This document shows, in pieces, positions 9,104 to 33,695 of a stretch of 58,334 nt of DNA (its first letter is position 1; each line of letters opens with the position of its first letter). The notes below the pieces were generated by a model. The model did no database searches. It was not told the origin of the DNA and saw nothing but the letters and a program-made list of their open reading frames with translations. The DNA is taken from positions 1 through 58,334 of the forward strand of contig CALVCT010000065.1 in assembly GCA_944326055.1 (NCBI GenBank), in the 5' to 3' direction. This DNA is from an uncultured Erysipelotrichaceae bacterium. GTDB lineage: Bacteria; Bacillota_I; Bacilli_A; Erysipelotrichales; Erysipelotrichaceae. Position numbers and translations under genes: made by a program.

Positions 9104-11075
9104 TATGCAGAAGTTTGAATTAGTCGCACCTTTCAAGCCGACAGGCGATCAGCCAGAAGCTATCGACAAGCTGACACAGGGCATCATCGATGGGAAGAAA
9201 TATCAAGTCCTACTTGGTGCTACTGGTACAGGTAAGACCTTTACGATCGCTAATGTCATCGCTAAAGTCAATAAGCCGACACTGGTCTTTGCCCACAATA
9301 AGACTCTAGCTGGTCAATTGTATTCAGAATTCAAAGAGCTCTTTCCGAAAAATCGCGTAGAGTATTTTGTCTCGAACTTCGATTATTATCAACCAGAAGC
9401 TTATCTCCCTAAGACTGACACATATATCGAAAAGAGTGCGATGACCAATGATGAGATCGATATGCTCAGAATGAGTGCTTATAATTCGCTTTTAGAAAGA
9501 AGAGATACGATCGTCGTAGCTTCTGTCGCTTGTATCTATGCTTCAAGTGATCCTAAGAGTTATCACGATATGTTCTTCACACTAAAGGTCGGTGATATGA
9601 TCGACAGGCAGGATCTCATCAAAAAGCTCGTCGCACGCCAATATAAGCGAAATGATATAGATCAGCTAAGATCGACTTTCAGAGTCAAAGGAGATACGAT
9701 CGAAGTCGTACCGGGCTATACTGATCAATTCATCATCCGTATCGAGATGTATGATGATGAGATCGAAAGGATCACGGAGATCGATCCGCTGACTAAAGAA
9801 GTCTTAAATGGTTATCTTGTCTACAATTTCTTTCCAGCTACAGGTTATGCACGTGATCAAAGAGATATCTTTAGGGCTTGTGATTCGATCGAAAAAGAAT
9901 TAGAAGAGCGTCTTGCCTATTTTGAAAAAGAAGATAAACCTTTGGAGAAAGAACGTCTCGAACAAAGAACGCGCTATGATCTTGAATCACTTAGAGAATT
10001 CGGGATCTGCAGTGGTATCGAGAACTATTCAGCACATATCGATGGAAGATATCATCATGAACGTCCTTTCAATCTCTTTGATTATTTTCCAGATGATTTC
10101 TTACTGGTGGTCGATGAATCACATGTCTCCTTACCACAGATACGCGGTATGTATCACGGGGACAGATCGCGCAAAGAGACCCTGGTGGAATATGGTTTTC
10201 GTCTTCCTAGTGCCTTAGATAATCGTCCTATGACTTTTGATGAGTTCATGGAAGTCACCGATCAGAGCATCTATGTCAGTGCGACACCTGGCGATTTTGA
10301 GCTTGACAAGGTACATGGAGAAGTCATTGAGCAGATCATCAGACCGACAGGTCTTTTAGATCCTAATATCGAAGTGCGTCCGACTTTAGGGCAGATCGAT
10401 GATATCTTGGAGGAGATCAAAGCTAATATCCAAAAAGATGAAAGGACACTGATCACGACACTCACGGTCAAGATGGCTGAAGATCTCACGGACTTCTTAA
10501 AGAAACAAGATCTAAAAGTCGCTTATCTTCATCATGAGACGAAGACTTTAGAGCGTACAGAGATCATTACTGAACTTAGAAAGGGCACTTATGATGTCTT
10601 AGTTGGTATCAACCTTTTGCGTGAAGGGCTCGATATTCCTGAAGTATCTTTGATCCTGATACTCGATGCGGATAAAGAAGGTTTTTTGCGCTCGGAAAGA
10701 TCACTTATCCAAACGATAGGAAGGGCTGCCAGAAATGCTCAGGGGCGTGTCATCATGTATGGTGATACGATAACTGACTCGATGCAAAAAGCGATCGCTG
10801 AGACAAAAAGAAGACGTTTGATCCAAGAGGCTTATAACGAAAAGCATCACATCACACCAACGACGATCAAAAAAGAGATCCGTGAACCTATCCATGGTAA
10901 AGAGACTAAAGAGATGGCTAAGAAGTTCATGAAGAAGAAGGTCCATACGAAGAAAGATCGTGATGAGCTGATAGCTTCCTTGACTAAGGAGATGAAGGCA
11001 GCAGCTAAAGCGATGGAATTTGAAAAAGCGGCTGAGCTCAGGGATATGATACTTGAATTAAAAGCTGATAGTTAG
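9081..11075 (+). CDS. uvrB: Excinuclease ABC subunit UvrB
   Basis: UvrB is the damage-verifying helicase-like subunit of nucleotide excision repair. This copy is 664 residues, the normal length. Seen motifs: Walker A GATGTGKT (about 46-53), the damage-probing beta-hairpin region [17 protein letters not shown], Walker B region [16 protein letters not shown], the QTIGRAARN helicase motif VI region, and a C-terminal UVR domain ([13 protein letters not shown]) that contacts UvrC. The start at 9081 is chosen because GAGG sits 6 bases before it; this overlaps the preceding gene by 23 bases and adds eight residues before the usual [10 protein letters not shown]. The alternative start at 9105 has no ribosome site. 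uvrA is not next to it, unlike in Bacillus. Confidence 0.97.
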
Positions 11076-11077
11076 TG

Positions 11078-11086
11078 TGTTATAAT
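11078..11086 (+). promoter_or_regulatory. Extended -10 promoter of rapZ, leaderless
   Basis: TGTTATAAT is a perfect extended -10 box. Exactly 6 bases (CAAGAT) separate TATAAT from the ATG at 11093, so the mRNA probably starts at the start codon. No convincing -35 box is visible. The box lies just after the uvrB stop codon. Confidence 0.75.
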
Positions 11087-11092
11087 CAAGAT

Positions 11093-11935
11093 ATGACAAA
11101 AGATATCGTCTTAGTAAGTGGTCTATCGGGAGCTGGTAAGACCAGCGTCTCAAATGTCTTAGAAGATCTAGGTTATCTTTGTATAGATCAATTTCCAGCG
11201 GAATTATTAAAAGAGCTCGTCGATCTTATCGAAAACGACAACAGCCATAAATATGATAAAGTGGCGATCACTGTCAGTATCGATGATCTCGACAATTATT
11301 TTATAGTGCTCGATAACTTACATGTGAATGCTAAGTTGGTCTTACTTGATGCGGATGAGGAAGTCATCCTCAATCGTTATAAATTCACTCGTCGCCTACA
11401 TCCGCTTCTACTTACGAATAAAGCCAATACGCTTGAAGAAGCTTATATGATCGAAAAGGATATCTTGGATCGTTATGCTGAGAAGTTTGAAGTCATCGAT
11501 ACTAGTGATATGGGACAATATGAGCTAAAGAAAGATATCGAAGAACTTTTATGCATCGACAATCACTATCGTTTCACACTTTCTTTTGAATCTTTTGGTT
11601 ATAAAAGAGGTTTGCCTATGGATGCGGATATCGTGATCGACACGCGCTTTTTAGACAATCCTTTCTATGATGAGAGACTCAAGAAACTAAATGGAAATGA
11701 TAAAGAAGTATATGACTATGTGATAGATAACCAAAAGACGAAAGAATATCTTTCGATCATCGTAACATATCTTGACCATATCTTTAAAGAATATGTCAAA
11801 GAAGGCAAGCGTCATCTGACGATCGCGATCGGCTGTACAGGTGGTCAACACCGTAGCGTCAGTGTCACTAATTGGTTGTATGCCCATTATAAGGATACTT
11901 ACTCGTGCCTCAAGTCACATCGGGAGCTATCATGA
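11093..11935 (+). CDS. rapZ: RapZ/YvcJ-family nucleotide-binding adaptor protein
   Basis: A 280-residue P-loop protein of the RapZ (YvcJ) family. Walker A is SGLSGAGKTSVSN near the N-terminus, followed by EDLGYLCIDQFP. The C-terminal domain carries the family signature IAIGCTGGQHRSVS. In Escherichia coli RapZ guides decay of the small RNA GlmZ and so controls amino sugar synthesis; in Bacillus YvcJ binds GTP and affects competence. The start at 11093 fits the leaderless promoter; an upstream in-frame ATG at 11075 lies before the -10 box. The gene overlaps yvcK by ATGA, giving the conserved rapZ-yvcK-whiA order. Confidence 0.93.
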   Translation: MTKDIVLVSGLSGAGKTSVSNVLEDLGYLCIDQFPAELLKELVDLIENDNSHKYDKVAITVSIDDLDNYFIVLDNLHVNAKLVLLDADEEVILNRYKFTRRLHPLLLTNKANTLEEAYMIEKDILDRYAEKFEVIDTSDMGQYELKKDIEELLCIDNHYRFTLSFESFGYKRGLPMDADIVIDTRFLDNPFYDERLKKLNGNDKEVYDYVIDNQKTKEYLSIIVTYLDHIFKEYVKEGKRHLTIAIGCTGGQHRSVSVTNWLYAHYKDTYSCLKSHRELS

Positions 11936-12879
11936 AGAAGATCGTCGTCATCGGTGGTGGACATGGTCAATCGACGATCTTAAAAGGTATCAAAGAGATC
12001 GAAGATGTCGCTATCTCAGCGATCGTTACAGTCGCTGACGATGGTGGTTCTACTGGTCGTATCCGCTCACTCTATAATATCCCAGCCATGGGAGATATCC
12101 GCAATGTCTTATTAGCGCTAAGGACTAAAGATAATTTTATCTCTGATCTTTTGGCTTATCGTTTCTCATCAGCACTCTATAGTGATGACTTTGATATCAT
12201 CGGTCATAATCTAGGTAATCTTATGATGACGGCTCTAACGGATACTGAAGGGTCTTTTCTAAAAGCGATCACCACCTTGAAGGAGGCTTTGGGAGTCAAA
12301 GCAGAGATCATACCTTCATCACTAGATATCATAACTTTATATGCGAAGATGGATGATGATACGATCGTCAAAGGTGAAGCAAATATCCCAAGTTATAATC
12401 ACCACATCAAGAAAGTCTTCTATGACAAAGAACCTGAAGCTACGGATAGTGCGATAAAAGCTATACTCGACGCTGATCTTTTGGTCTATGGTATCGGTAG
12501 TGTCTATACGTCGATCATCCCTAATATCATCATCCCAAAGATCAAAGAAGCGATAGCGAAGACCAAAGCCTACAAAGTCTACTTCGCAAACTGCATGACG
12601 CAAAATAACGAGACTTTCGACTATGATCTTAAAGATCACGTCGAAGCGATGATGGAACATGGGGCTAAGATCGATCTTGTGGTCAAGCATGACGACGTCA
12701 TCCCAAGTGCGATCAAAGAGCGTTATCTTCTTGAGAATTCTATCGAAGTCATCGATCATCATGATCTTGATATCGAAGTCATGCCTTATGACTTATTAGA
12801 CTTCTCTAGAAATCTCGTGCGTCATGACCCATATAAGATCAAAGCAGTGACAGAGAAGATCATAAAGGAGCGCCTTTGA
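11932..12879 (+). CDS. yvcK: Gluconeogenesis factor YvcK
   Basis: A 315-residue member of the YvcK/CofD-like family, which binds UDP-sugars in Bacillus and is needed for cell shape and growth on gluconeogenic carbon sources. The N-terminal glycine-rich loop is VIGGGHGQSTILKG. The family segments VADDGGSTGRIR, MGDIRNVLLAL and IGHNLGNLMMTALT follow. A second phospho-dependent ligand region is GIGSVYTSIIPN. The start at 11932 overlaps the rapZ stop (ATGA), so translation is coupled. Confidence 0.95.
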   Translation: MKKIVVIGGGHGQSTILKGIKEIEDVAISAIVTVADDGGSTGRIRSLYNIPAMGDIRNVLLALRTKDNFISDLLAYRFSSALYSDDFDIIGHNLGNLMMTALTDTEGSFLKAITTLKEALGVKAEIIPSSLDIITLYAKMDDDTIVKGEANIPSYNHHIKKVFYDKEPEATDSAIKAILDADLLVYGIGSVYTSIIPNIIIPKIKEAIAKTKAYKVYFANCMTQNNETFDYDLKDHVEAMMEHGAKIDLVVKHDDVIPSAIKERYLLENSIEVIDHHDLDIEVMPYDLLDFSRNLVRHDPYKIKAVTEKIIKERL

Positions 12880-13814
12880 TGTCTTTTACGACAGAGATAA
12901 AAAAAGAGATCTCAAAAAATGAGCTCAAAGATCATTGTCTGAGAGCAGAGCTCAGTGCTCTGATCCAATTGACCAGTAGCATCCAGATCTCAAATGGGTC
13001 ACTAGACTTACTTATCAGGACCGAGAGTCCTATCACTGCTGGACGCATCAAAGTCCTACTTAAGGAGAGATATCAAGATCTGGATCATGAACTAGTCGTC
13101 ATGCAGAAGACGAATCTCAGAAAGAACAATATCTATCTTTTGACTGTAAGAAAAAGAGCCAACGAGATCCTATCGGATCTAGGTCTCTATAACACTAAAG
13201 GCTTACTTTTAGAGCACCCGCTTTATCACATCATCCAAAAGGATTGTTGTGCTAGAGCTTATTTGGCAGGCGCTTTCTTGGCTTTTGGCTCATGTAACGA
13301 TCCTTCAAAAAGTGATTATCACTTAGAGATCTCTTTTATGAGTATCAACCATGCTCAATTTACGATCAAACTCTTGTCACGTTTTATGATCGAAGCTAAG
13401 TTTACAAAAAGACGTAACAAATTCGTCGTCTATGTCAAGAAGGCTGATGACATCTCTGATTTTCTTAGGTGCGTAGGTGCATCTGAGTCGCTGATGAAGT
13501 TTGAGGATGCTCGCATCCAAAGAGACTTCACTAATAGTATCGTCCGTCTCAACAATTGTGAGATCGCAAATGAGATGAAGTCGCTTAAAGCTTCAGCAGA
13601 ACAGATCACTGATATGGAGAAGATCATCAAGAGCCCAAGATATGAAGTGTTGGATGAAAAACTCAAGAAAGTCATTGAATTAAGACTTACTGATCGTGAT
13701 CTTTCACTTAGCGAACTATGTGTGAGATACGAAGAAAGATATGGTGAAAAGATCTCAAAATCTGGACTCAAACATCGTTTAGTCAAGATACACGAGATCG
13801 CGAAAGGAATGTAA
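12879..13814 (+). CDS. whiA: DNA-binding protein WhiA
   Basis: A 311-residue WhiA homologue. WhiA combines a degenerate LAGLIDADG homing-endonuclease-like domain with a C-terminal helix-turn-helix. It affects cell division and chromosome segregation in Bacillus and is a sporulation regulator in Streptomyces. The first domain shows CCARAYLAGAFLAFGSCNDPS and HLEISFMSINHAQF. The C-terminal part, ELRLTDRDLSLSELCVRYEE, is the DNA-binding helix-turn-helix. The ATG at 12879 overlaps the yvcK stop by one base and has AAGGAG 8 bases before it; an upstream TTG is rejected for that reason. Confidence 0.95.
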   Translation: MSFTTEIKKEISKNELKDHCLRAELSALIQLTSSIQISNGSLDLLIRTESPITAGRIKVLLKERYQDLDHELVVMQKTNLRKNNIYLLTVRKRANEILSDLGLYNTKGLLLEHPLYHIIQKDCCARAYLAGAFLAFGSCNDPSKSDYHLEISFMSINHAQFTIKLLSRFMIEAKFTKRRNKFVVYVKKADDISDFLRCVGASESLMKFEDARIQRDFTNSIVRLNNCEIANEMKSLKASAEQITDMEKIIKSPRYEVLDEKLKKVIELRLTDRDLSLSELCVRYEERYGEKISKSGLKHRLVKIHEIAKGM

Positions 13815-29861: not shown

Positions 29862-30678
29862 GCCGACGATGACAAAAGAGATCTTGGAGCGCTATGGCCT
29901 TAAAGCTGATAAGCGTTTTGGCCAGAATTTTTTGATCGATCCCAATACAGTAGAAAAGATCGCGATGAATGCGTGTGATGAAGAGCTGGTCACGATCGAG
30001 ATCGGACCAGGCATCGGTTCTCTCACGCAATATCTAGCACGCTATTCAAAAAAGGTCTACGCTCATGAGATCGATAAGCGTCTTATCGAGGTGCTAGAAG
30101 ATATCTTCAAAGATGAAGAGAAGATAAAGATCGTTCCAGGCGATTTTCTTAAATGTGACTTGTCTTTGATGCCCTATCATGACGCAAAGATCAATGTCTG
30201 CAGCAACCTTCCCTACTACATCACGACGCCAGTGCTATTTAAGATATTTGAAAGCGACCTTGATATCAAAAAGATCACCGTCATGGTCCAAAAGGAAGTA
30301 GCTGAGCGTTTTGTCGCTAAGCCTGACACAGAAGATTATTCTGCGCTTTCTGTGATCGTGCAATATCTTTTTGACACTAAACTGCTGATGAACGTGTCGC
30401 GTAAAGTCTTTGATCCAATGCCCAAGGTCGACAGTGCCGTCGTGACTTTCACACCGAAGATCAAAGATGAAGATATCGTTGAGAAAGACTTCTTCGATCT
30501 TATAAAAGCTTCTTTCAAACAAAGACGCAAGACCCTTAAAAACAATCTCACTAGCGCCTATAAAGGAAAAGACATCGATAAGATGATCGCTGAAGCTGGC
30601 TTAAAAGCGACTGTCAGGGCCCAAGAGCTGACGATCGAAGATTTTAAACATCTATATGGAGGGATCTATGAGACTTAG
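29845..30678 (+). CDS. rsmA: 16S rRNA dimethyladenosine transferase KsgA
   Basis: A 277-residue methyltransferase that dimethylates two adjacent adenines in the terminal helix of 16S rRNA. It has the family N-terminus RFGQNFLIDPNTVEKI, SAM motif I EIGPGIGSLT, acidic motif II VYAHEIDKRLIEVLE and catalytic motif IV NLPYYITTPV. A C-terminal helical domain includes SFKQRRKTLKNNL. Good ribosome site (GAAAGGA). Overlaps ispE by 11 bases. Confidence 0.97.
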   Translation: MDTIAKPTMTKEILERYGLKADKRFGQNFLIDPNTVEKIAMNACDEELVTIEIGPGIGSLTQYLARYSKKVYAHEIDKRLIEVLEDIFKDEEKIKIVPGDFLKCDLSLMPYHDAKINVCSNLPYYITTPVLFKIFESDLDIKKITVMVQKEVAERFVAKPDTEDYSALSVIVQYLFDTKLLMNVSRKVFDPMPKVDSAVVTFTPKIKDEDIVEKDFFDLIKASFKQRRKTLKNNLTSAYKGKDIDKMIAEAGLKATVRAQELTIEDFKHLYGGIYET

Positions 30679-31522
30679 AGCATATGCCAAGATCAATATC
30701 GGTCTTGATGTCAAAGGAAAAAGAGACGATGGTTATCATGAACTTGATATGATCATGGCACCGATCAATTTCTATGATGAGATCGATATCGAAGTCGCTG
30801 AAAAGATGAGTCTTACTTCTAATCAGCGCTATATCGATAGTAATCCAGATAATTCGATACTCAAGACCGTAAAAGTCATGCGTGAACGTTATGGCTTTAA
30901 AGAAAACTTTGATATCAAACTAAAAAAGCACATCCCGACACAGGGTGGTCTAGCTGGTGGTTCAGCTGATGCGGCTGCGATCATCAAAGGCATCAAGAGT
31001 CTGTTGGATATACCGATGACACTTGATGATATGCGCGATATCTGTTTGAAGATCGGTTCAGATGAGTATTTCTGTCTTTTAGGCAAAGTCGCAAGAGTCA
31101 GTGGTACAGGTGAGATCATTGAACCTTTTACTAATGGCATCAAGATGGGCATCTTACTTGTCAAGCCTTGGCATGGTGTCTCGACAAAAGCAGCTTTTGA
31201 AAAGCTCGATCTTTTGAGCTGTGATCATCCTGATATCGGTAAGATCAAAAGAGCGTTAGTTGAAGATAATTATGATCTCTTGTGTCATTCGATCGGCAAT
31301 AGTCTTGAAGAGCCTTCTTTCAAGATCAGACCTGAGATCAAAAAAGCAAAAGAGAAGCTCTTGCGCTATGGTATGGATGCTGCTCTTATGAGCGGTAGTG
31401 GATCTACAGTCTTCGGTATTACACAAAACACACGCAAGCTCGATGAAGTTATGGACATCATGAAACAACAGCGCTATTTTGTAAGAAAAGTCCACATCTA
31501 TGAAGATCCGCTCATTATTTAA
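30668..31522 (+). CDS. ispE: 4-diphosphocytidyl-2-C-methyl-D-erythritol kinase IspE
   Basis: A 284-residue GHMP kinase of the non-mevalonate (MEP) isoprenoid pathway. N-terminal motif RAYAKINIGLDVKGKRDDGYH, ATP-binding glycine-rich loop TQGGLAGGSADAAA, and C-terminal motif ALMSGSGSTVFG. The ATG at 30668 has GGAGGG upstream; an in-frame ATG at 30656 lies before that site. Its presence implies the organism makes isoprenoids by the MEP route. In Bacillus ispE is separated from ksgA by yabG, veg and sspF; here they touch. Confidence 0.96.
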   Translation: MRLRAYAKINIGLDVKGKRDDGYHELDMIMAPINFYDEIDIEVAEKMSLTSNQRYIDSNPDNSILKTVKVMRERYGFKENFDIKLKKHIPTQGGLAGGSADAAAIIKGIKSLLDIPMTLDDMRDICLKIGSDEYFCLLGKVARVSGTGEIIEPFTNGIKMGILLVKPWHGVSTKAAFEKLDLLSCDHPDIGKIKRALVEDNYDLLCHSIGNSLEEPSFKIRPEIKKAKEKLLRYGMDAALMSGSGSTVFGITQNTRKLDEVMDIMKQQRYFVRKVHIYEDPLII

Positions 31523-31623: not shown

Positions 31624-32718
31624 ATGAAAAGCGCAGTTATTATCTTAGAGGAAAAGAAGGCCTTGAAGAAAGCTCTGCTTCCTGTCTTAGATAGAAGAGT
31701 CATCGACCTTGTGGTCCATGAACTATATGAGGCTGGTGCTCATGATGTCTATGTCGTATGTGATAAAGATCTAGATATCAAAGCTAAAGTCACTAAGGAT
31801 CTATACGGAGCGATCGAGCTTATCGGGCTTGACAGTGAACTCATCGTCATCGATGATGTCTATCCTTTCTTAGATGAAGGAGATTATAAGAAATTATATG
31901 CCCATGACAGGGCTCTTATTAAAGGTACGAAGATCATCAAGATCGATACGAAAGAACTGACTGAATTAAAGTCACTAGAACTTGATACGGTCGAGGTAGA
32001 AGAAGATAGATTGGCTGATATCTTAGATCCTAAAGCCTATCGTCGATATAGAGATGATCTTAAAGAGCGCATCTTAGATTATCATGAAGCAAATGGTGTC
32101 ATCTTATTAGACAGAGACAGGACTTTTATCGGCCCTGATGCCAGGATCGAGGAGGGGGTCGTCATTGAAGGTGATACACATATCTATGGTGATACGCTCA
32201 TCCTTAAAGGTACAAAGATCACTAGTGGATCGTATATCGAAGATAGCGAGATCGGAAATGATGATGTGATAATCTCATCACGGATCATCGACTCTAAAGT
32301 CCATGATCGAAATACGATAGGACCATATGCACATCTAAGGATGCATACAGAAGTCTTTAATGATACACGTATCGGTAACTTCGTTGAATTCAAGAATACA
32401 CGCTTTGATGATGGATCACGCTGTGCCCATCTTACTTATCTTGGTGATTGTACAGTCGGCAAAGACGTCAATATCGGATGTGGTGTCGTTACCGTCAATT
32501 ATGATGGAAAACACAAGAACCATACTTATATCGCTGATCATGCCTTTATCGGCTCCAATGCGAATCTCGTAGCGCCGATCACGATCGGCGAGTATGCCTT
32601 AGTGGCAGCTGGTAGTACTGTGACTAAAGACGTGCCAGATAAAGACATGGCTATAGCCAGACCTTTTGAGACTTATAAGAAAGGTTATGGATATACATAT
32701 ATCAAGAAGGAGAAATAG
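31624..32718 (+). CDS. glmU: GlmU-like protein with degenerate uridylyltransferase domain
   Basis: A 364-residue protein, about 90 shorter than usual GlmU. The C-terminal left-handed beta-helix acetyltransferase is complete: RIGNFVEFKNTRF, AHLTYLGDCTVG with the catalytic His, VTVNYDGKHKNHT, and ITIGEYALVAAGSTVTKDVP. The N-terminal pyrophosphorylase half is reduced: the nucleotide-binding loop LAAGxGTRM is absent (here VIILEEKKALKKALLPVLD), and only vestiges such as VIDDVYPFLDEG remain. It probably still acetylates glucosamine-1-phosphate but not make UDP-GlcNAc. Context with prs downstream matches Bacillus glmU-prs, so this is the orthologue and not a paralogue. Confidence 0.85.
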   Translation: MKSAVIILEEKKALKKALLPVLDRRVIDLVVHELYEAGAHDVYVVCDKDLDIKAKVTKDLYGAIELIGLDSELIVIDDVYPFLDEGDYKKLYAHDRALIKGTKIIKIDTKELTELKSLELDTVEVEEDRLADILDPKAYRRYRDDLKERILDYHEANGVILLDRDRTFIGPDARIEEGVVIEGDTHIYGDTLILKGTKITSGSYIEDSEIGNDDVIISSRIIDSKVHDRNTIGPYAHLRMHTEVFNDTRIGNFVEFKNTRFDDGSRCAHLTYLGDCTVGKDVNIGCGVVTVNYDGKHKNHTYIADHAFIGSNANLVAPITIGEYALVAAGSTVTKDVPDKDMAIARPFETYKKGYGYTYIKKEK

Positions 32719-32723
32719 AGAAG

Positions 32724-33695
32724 ATGAATGAAACGATGGTTTTTGCATTGACGGCTAATATCGATCTTGTCAATGAGATCTGCGATTATCTCAGTCTCTC
32801 ACCAGGCAAGATCTCAGTCAAACACTTCGCAGATGGCGAGATCTTAGTCGAGCCAGAAGAGACAGTACGTGGTAAGAAAGTCTATGTTGTACAAAGCACA
32901 TGTAATCCAGTCACCGAAAGATTGATGGAACTACTTGTCTGTGTCGATGCGCTCAAGAGAGCCTCAGCAGGTTCTATCACCTGCATCATGCCTTACTATG
33001 GCTATGCAAGACAAGACAGAAAAGCTCGTCCTAGACAACCGATCACTGCTAAACTCGTCGCTGATCTTCTGGAAGCAGCTGGAGCCAATCGTGTCGTCAC
33101 GATCGATCTTCACGCTACGCAGATCCAAGGTTTCTTCAACTTCCCTACAGATGACCTCACTTGCATTCCGATGATGGCTTATCACTATAAACATAGTGGT
33201 ATCGATCTTTCAAATACAGTAGCTGTTTCGCCAGATCATGGAGGAACGACTAGAGCTCGTCGTTTAGCGGATGCTTTAGGGATTCCACTGGCGATCATCG
33301 ATAAGCGACGTCCAAGACCTAATGTTTGTGAAGCGACCAGTGTCATCGGTGATGTCGTCGATAAAGATGTCATCGTTGTCGATGATATCTGTGATACAGC
33401 TGGCTCTTTAGTTGCTGCATGCAATATCTTACGTGATAAAGGCGCAAGAGATATCTATGTCGCTGTTACACATGGCGTATTTTCTGGCAGTGCTGCAGAA
33501 AACATCCAGAACTCACCGATCAAGAAGATGTTGATAACGAATACGATACCATTATCACAAGACTTCAAAGAAAAGTGTGATAAAGTCGAAGTGTTATCGG
33601 TCGGCAAATTACTAGCGCGCATCATCGCTGCTATCTCAAACCATCAACCAGTATCTGAGATCTATGATCTGATGTATAACGACAATAAAGATTGA
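32724..33695 (+). CDS. prs: Ribose-phosphate pyrophosphokinase (PRPP synthetase)
   Basis: A 323-residue enzyme making PRPP from ribose-5-phosphate and ATP for nucleotide, His and Trp synthesis. Motifs: ISVKHFADGEILVEPEETVRG, MPYYGYARQDRKARPRQPIT (ATP flexible loop), IDLHATQIQGFF, VSPDHGGTTRAR and the PRPP loop VIVVDDICDTAGSLV. Five bases after glmU, with AAGGAG upstream. Full length. Confidence 0.97.
   Translation: MNETMVFALTANIDLVNEICDYLSLSPGKISVKHFADGEILVEPEETVRGKKVYVVQSTCNPVTERLMELLVCVDALKRASAGSITCIMPYYGYARQDRKARPRQPITAKLVADLLEAAGANRVVTIDLHATQIQGFFNFPTDDLTCIPMMAYHYKHSGIDLSNTVAVSPDHGGTTRARRLADALGIPLAIIDKRRPRPNVCEATSVIGDVVDKDVIVVDDICDTAGSLVAACNILRDKGARDIYVAVTHGVFSGSAAENIQNSPIKKMLITNTIPLSQDFKEKCDKVEVLSVGKLLARIIAAISNHQPVSEIYDLMYNDNKD

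Follow-up and report, generated by a model that had tools for sequence, protein, structure and literature searches.

Along the window, i.e. the whole stretch of 58,334 nucleotides that was analysed, the genes mnmE-tatD-rnmV-ksgA-ispE-glmU-prs followed one another, all except glmU being named by eye from their sequence. In relatives, prs (also named by sequence) likewise lay after glmU. The ispE-glmU-prs order agreed with the earlier note, which had called the gene a glmU orthologue from its position before prs. The same window contained a rapZ-glmR-whiA locus (11075–13814), which that note had missed. The features are collected in Table 1.

Table 1. Features of the glmU and glmR loci, and the 3PNN-family gene located elsewhere in the genome.
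Feature	Position	Strand	Basis
rapZ, 5' neighbour of glmR	11075..11935	+	sequence search of locus
GlmR/YvcK orthologue, 315 aa, rival candidate uridyltransferase	11932..12879	+	TIGR01826, residues D36, D37, N198
whiA-like gene, 3' of glmR	12876..13814	+	position and sequence
ispE-like gene, 5' of glmU	30656..31522	+	named by sequence, not family search
TATAAT six bases before glmU start codon	31612..31617	+	same spacing in G002, G004, G008
glmU orthologue, predicted acetyltransferase-only form, 364 aa	31624..32718	+	ORF, profile and PDB matches, motifs, alignment
Uridylyltransferase-domain remnant (residues 1-144), without nucleotide loop and most substrate motifs	31624..32055	+	motifs, alignment, dN/dS, model
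Left-handed beta-helix acetyltransferase domain (residues 146-364)	32059..32715	+	profiles, PDB matches, motifs, alignment
prs, ribose-phosphate pyrophosphokinase by sequence, conserved neighbour	32724..33695	+	sequence and relatives' loci
3PNN-family nucleotidyltransferase, 297 aa	G000:C11:23290-24180	-	PF00483 above cut-off, PDB 3pnn match

The 364-aa protein matched GlmU profiles only with its C-terminal half. PRK14354 (NCBIfam) gave 263.9 bits against a cut-off of 450, with profile positions 223–445 aligned to residues ~133–355, and TIGR01173 gave 245 bits against a cut-off of 366.85, again over the C-terminal half of the model only. Matches to GlmU structures in the PDB started at residues 141–173, and a Pfam search of the protein returned no nucleotidyltransferase above the cut-off. 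In an alignment of 52 genomes, the acetyltransferase motifs HLRMHT, NFVEFKN, HLTYLGD and TVNYDG were intact. The beta-helix residues R239, E255, K257, H269, Y272, N283, N292, Y293 and K298 were invariant with full-length GlmUs. The acetyltransferase beta-helix was thus complete, as the earlier note had stated.

Intact GlmUs of the family measured ~450–486 aa and had all nucleotidyltransferase (NTase) motifs; in the same alignment most of them kept MAAGKGTRM, QLGTGHA, GDxP, YGR, IVEF, EINTG and GxND. In the window GlmU and its genus, by contrast, MAAGKGTRM, QLGTGHA, YGRV, IVEFKD, EINTGIY and VAGVND were deleted or replaced. The N-terminal domain was ~88–90 aa shorter than in full-length GlmU, leaving a remnant of ~145 residues. 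Both the shortfall of about 90 residues and the loss of the LAAGxGTRM loop had been noted earlier from the window, and most substrate motifs proved to be gone as well. With bifunctional GlmU (TIGR01173/PRK14354; S. pneumoniae 1hm0, 4aaw; S. aureus 9dqf) the window protein shared the position before prs and the intact beta-helix acetyltransferase, but it differed in its N-terminal domain, which was ~90 aa shorter and without the nucleotide loop and most ligand motifs, and it scored far under the family cut-offs. From these sequence features, the window GlmU is very probably acetyltransferase-only.

The remnant was not free to drift. In three close pairs its dN was 1.6 to 3 times that of the beta-helix, and Nei-Gojobori dN/dS was 0.18–0.22 for the remnant vs 0.09–0.21 for the beta-helix, with synonymous sites near saturation and the ratios therefore rough. 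The remnant evolves faster than the beta-helix yet under purifying selection, and is a retained module rather than junk, kept perhaps for folding or trimer packing. An AlphaFold2 model of medium confidence (pLDDT 68.5) resembled GlmU in its fold but had a shortened core of the nucleotidyltransferase type; it provides no argument for or against a nucleotide site. If the remnant had rebuilt its site, it could itself still transfer uridylyl groups. The purifying selection, the part of the fold retained in the model, and a lysine matching K25 and a DD close to D105, which may persist according to the alignment, would fit such a site. However, the regions of the LAAGxGTRM loop, Q76/GTGHA, YGR, E154, N169 and N227 are all missing, and M1, D23, Y80 and P81 alone were invariant across the remnants of ten sequences. 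We regard a rebuilt site as highly improbable.

The same form of GlmU was present in all nine genomes of the genus (47–61% identity to the window protein) and in G064 of a sister genus (about 40% identity). Judged by its relatives and gene content, the window organism would belong to Bacillota. These were ten separate assemblies with the same architecture and open frames throughout. The N-terminal MKSAVIIL aligned with the normal GlmU N-terminus, so the NTase losses are internal, and a missed start or a frameshift is excluded. A split gene with the NTase next door was also rejected, as no NTase ORF was found beside beta-helix-only genes. The window genome is a draft of 81 contigs (98.5% complete, not closed), which could favour an error of assembly or sequencing, or a decaying pseudogene, as the origin of the short GlmU. 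Such an origin is refuted by the conservation of the form in nine genus genomes, and the dN/dS values well below 1 in both GlmU parts speak against a pseudogene.

We searched 273 family genomes, incomplete assemblies included, with profiles of intact GlmU and of the NTase alone. Intact GlmU was found in about 95 genomes and an NTase with a shortened or missing beta-helix in ~96. Another 36, among them those of the window's genus, matched the beta-helix but showed no recognisable NTase; in the remaining 46 neither half was matched. The GlmU halves were thus lost independently and in both directions. By these profile matches, the acetyltransferase-only loss is recurrent in the family and not unique to the window genome, which widens the case of domain loss in peptidoglycan precursor synthesis that had been proposed for the window. 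Most relatives that seemed to have no GlmU keep the NTase half. Shortened versions varied in extent: G032 encoded a 374-aa GlmU, and G054, G018, G020, G049 and G065 encoded a beta-helix alone (214–249 aa) with no adjoining NTase gene. In genus g3 (G010, G067) the protein was of similar length to the window GlmU, and the acetyltransferase motifs were altered as well.

Altered acetyltransferase motifs were seen in L066 (G010), L033 (G067) and L080 (G040), where HLRMHT was replaced by II-DNC or IIEDDS and HLTYLGD by HNVYLGN. In these full-length or nearly full-length GlmUs both halves may be inactive. The mirror loss was observed at G029:C35, G038:C107, G055:C69 and G009:C12 and in most of genera g32, g24, g48, g2 and g30: the uridylyltransferase was kept and most of the beta-helix was gone, the match covering about positions 1–330 of 451. 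In G029, G254 and G143, in-frame stops lay inside the match. A natural loss of one half is also known from Rickettsia, whose GlmU has no acetyltransferase domain (PMC5615194). The half lost there is the opposite of that lost in the window GlmU, and the NTase-only forms in other genera of the family are comparable to it.

Loss of the same half was found outside the family. In a scan of a genome collection, Ruminiclostridium hungatei, R. sufflavum and a Eubacterium MAG (L134, L139, L138) encoded a GlmU of 395–400 aa (395–399 aa in the two Ruminiclostridium species) which, like that of the window, lay before prs and combined an intact beta-helix with a shortened, loop-less NTase. Two of these three hosts are cultured. 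Their remnant sequence differed from that of the window GlmU, so the loss in Clostridia was probably independent. In two further MAGs (L141, Clostridia; L133, Christensenellaceae, at a contig end), a beta-helix gene without NTase domain lay beside a glmM-like gene. Among open-access papers, our literature search turned up neither a described acetyltransferase-only GlmU nor a function assigned to 3PNN.

All nine genus genomes encoded GlmM above the cut-off and MurG, although the MurG match was partial in G002 and below the curated cut-off in five of the nine. UDP-GlcNAc would thus be needed in the genus, and with an acetyltransferase-only GlmU a separate protein would perform the uridylyl transfer. 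The earlier note had reasoned that the last step must be made by another enzyme, and the lost nucleotide site together with the retained acetyltransferase supports this prediction.

Profile and domain searches of the window genome recovered no intact GlmU, no second GlmU-type NTase and no PF01704 domain, so a eukaryote-type UAP pyrophosphorylase was rejected as the replacement. Among 118 relatives, the sole protein above the PF01704 cut-off was L083 (G060:C47:3540-4514, 129 bits), in a genome with an intact GlmU. A PF12804 search of the window genome yielded no additional candidate. PF00483 was found in three of its proteins; two adjacent ones of the glycogen type (GlgC/GlgD-type, contig C68) were excluded, being taken for ADP-glucose enzymes, and the third was the 3PNN-family protein. 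A motif scan of separate genome stretches (about 1.0 Mb) detected no further AAGxGxR protein. Motif searches covering about 73% of the genome did not pick up glmS or murA; neither gene can be called absent on that basis. Salvage through an N-acetylhexosamine 1-kinase (NahK) was discarded for the genus, as the kinase was absent from its nine genomes. Of the substitutes proposed in the earlier note, a second pyrophosphorylase of the UAP or GlmU type was therefore not found, and two candidates for a separate uridylyltransferase, the 3PNN protein and GlmR/YvcK, were present.

The 297-aa protein matched PDB 3pnn over its full length (254 bits, residues 1–296). This structural-genomics entry from P. 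gingivalis is named only 'conserved domain protein'; the window genome's candidate is a full-length member of the family, and its role as a uridylyltransferase is one that we infer, as the entry names no function. The nucleotide-binding residues of 3PNN were invariant in 50 sequences. In three genomes of a neighbouring family (G093, G097, G099), 3PNN was fused to an N-acetylhexosamine 1-kinase, a relative of 4wh1 (42% class, E 3.5e-96), and in eight more genomes it adjoined the kinase. The fusion proteins (L085, L086 and L087, respectively) were 652–675 aa long and are likely one-protein salvage enzymes converting HexNAc to UDP-HexNAc. Ten or more genera of the family carried the cluster 3PNN-TraB-cdaA-cdaR-glmM (TraB, cdaA and cdaR named by sequence), and in several more it was seen as far as cdaA or cdaR, where the examined stretch ends. 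The window genome retained TraB-cdaA-cdaR-glmM intact on contig C4, and its 3PNN gene lay beside maf on contig C11. The NahK fusion and the glmM cluster point to N-acetylhexosamine-1-phosphate as the 3PNN substrate. Since NahK is absent from the genus, the substrate there would come from GlmU.

Co-occurrence gave the 3PNN protein mild support at most. No enrichment of 3PNN with NTase loss was detected over all 273 genomes (p 0.44). In genomes at least 90% complete and with a beta-helix present, a subset picked after the 273-genome test had shown nothing, 3PNN occurred in 22/22 beta-helix-only vs 54/66 intact-GlmU genomes (p 0.024, ignoring phylogeny). 3PNN is also frequent in genomes that have an intact GlmU. 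In a 3PNN tree, which takes in only genomes with 3PNN, the NTase-less genera around the window's genus fell into one supported clade of 13, and the tree requires the NTase state to have changed four times or more. G278, G279, G280, G006, G223 and G047 showed no GlmU NTase that could be recognised and no 3PNN protein; G006 belongs to the same genus as the window and is 87% complete. The searches for GlmU and 3PNN gave no candidate in G024 and G063, which were not counted as evidence.

The window GlmR scored 310 bits to TIGR01826 (cut-off 196), and its D36, D37 and N198 are the equivalents of D40, D41 and N198 of Listeria GlmR, whose triple mutation lowered activity about 100-fold (PMC10128056). 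Purified GlmR of Listeria, S. aureus and B. subtilis forms UDP-GlcNAc in vitro (PMC10128056), and B. subtilis was inferred to depend on GlmR activity on one medium (PMC13046274). Given the conserved residues and the activity of its orthologues, GlmR may take over the missing step or contribute to it. As the main UDP-GlcNAc synthase beside an acetyltransferase-only GlmU, with the 3PNN protein serving another sugar, it would better fit the few NTase-less genomes without 3PNN (G006, G278–G280, G223). However, GlmR is reported as accessory, and it is described as strongly conserved across both Firmicutes and Actinobacteria (PMC10128056); GlmR alone thus leaves a lineage-restricted loss unexplained. 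Furthermore, 3PNN and not GlmR sits near glmM and NahK, and the nucleotide-loop-like stretch of the window GlmR reads GGGHGQS, not GGGTGLS. A main role for GlmR is less likely than not, but GlmR is a strong contender or partner beside the 3PNN protein. In Listeria and B. subtilis, GlmR acts beside an intact GlmU, whereas the GlmU of the window organism has no uridylyltransferase site; the lineage offers a case in nature for asking if GlmR can serve as the main rather than an accessory UDP-GlcNAc synthase.

A third source, either another unrecognised enzyme or the uptake of a preformed intermediate, would be compatible with an assembly that is 98.5% complete and not closed, and with the few NTase-less genomes, such as G047, that have neither 3PNN nor GlmU. 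Two adequate candidates are present, though, and the PF00483, PF12804 and PF01704 searches revealed no further one; it would be unusual for a free-living bacterium that builds a wall to take up UDP-sugars. We consider this source improbable.

We favour the 3PNN protein over GlmR as the main UDP-GlcNAc-forming enzyme, with a probability of roughly 0.55; every activity and the division of labour are ones that we infer. GlmU would act as a monofunctional glucosamine-1-phosphate N-acetyltransferase (GlcN-1-P + acetyl-CoA -> GlcNAc-1-P), and a separate protein, most likely the 297-aa 3PNN protein, would convert GlcNAc-1-P and UTP to UDP-GlcNAc and PPi, with GlmR/YvcK as a backup or partner. Another supplier of UDP-GlcNAc would have relaxed selection on the N-terminal domain of GlmU, which would then have decayed to a remnant in the window's genus and its sisters and vanished fully in others. 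Against a main role for 3PNN, the protein could serve glucose-1-P, and G006, G278–G280 and G223 have neither NTase nor 3PNN. We give even odds to the broader proposal that the 3PNN family comprises dedicated HexNAc-1-phosphate uridylyltransferases which are widespread and relieved GlmU of its uridylyltransferase domain several times in one bacterial family, the route being GlmM – acetyltransferase-only GlmU – 3PNN. A nucleotidyltransferase family that has a solved structure but no name would then gain a proposed function.

GlmU is generally seen as an essential enzyme in which two steps are fused, and efforts are under way to target it with antibiotics. A lineage living without the uridylyltransferase half would mean that this half is replaceable, and the candidates described here point to the replacement. 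The two-way dismemberment of GlmU within one family also makes it possible to compare how fusion and fission of domains have evolved in cell-wall synthesis.

In the window genome (G000) and in G002, G004 and G008 (loci L007–L009), TATAAT lay six bases 5' of the glmU start and no Shine-Dalgarno sequence was seen; the TATAAT pattern alone was not rarer than chance in the window. The spacing suggests a leaderless start, with a possible switch to leaderless translation inside the genus. Other members of the genus had a GGAGG-type site before glmU.
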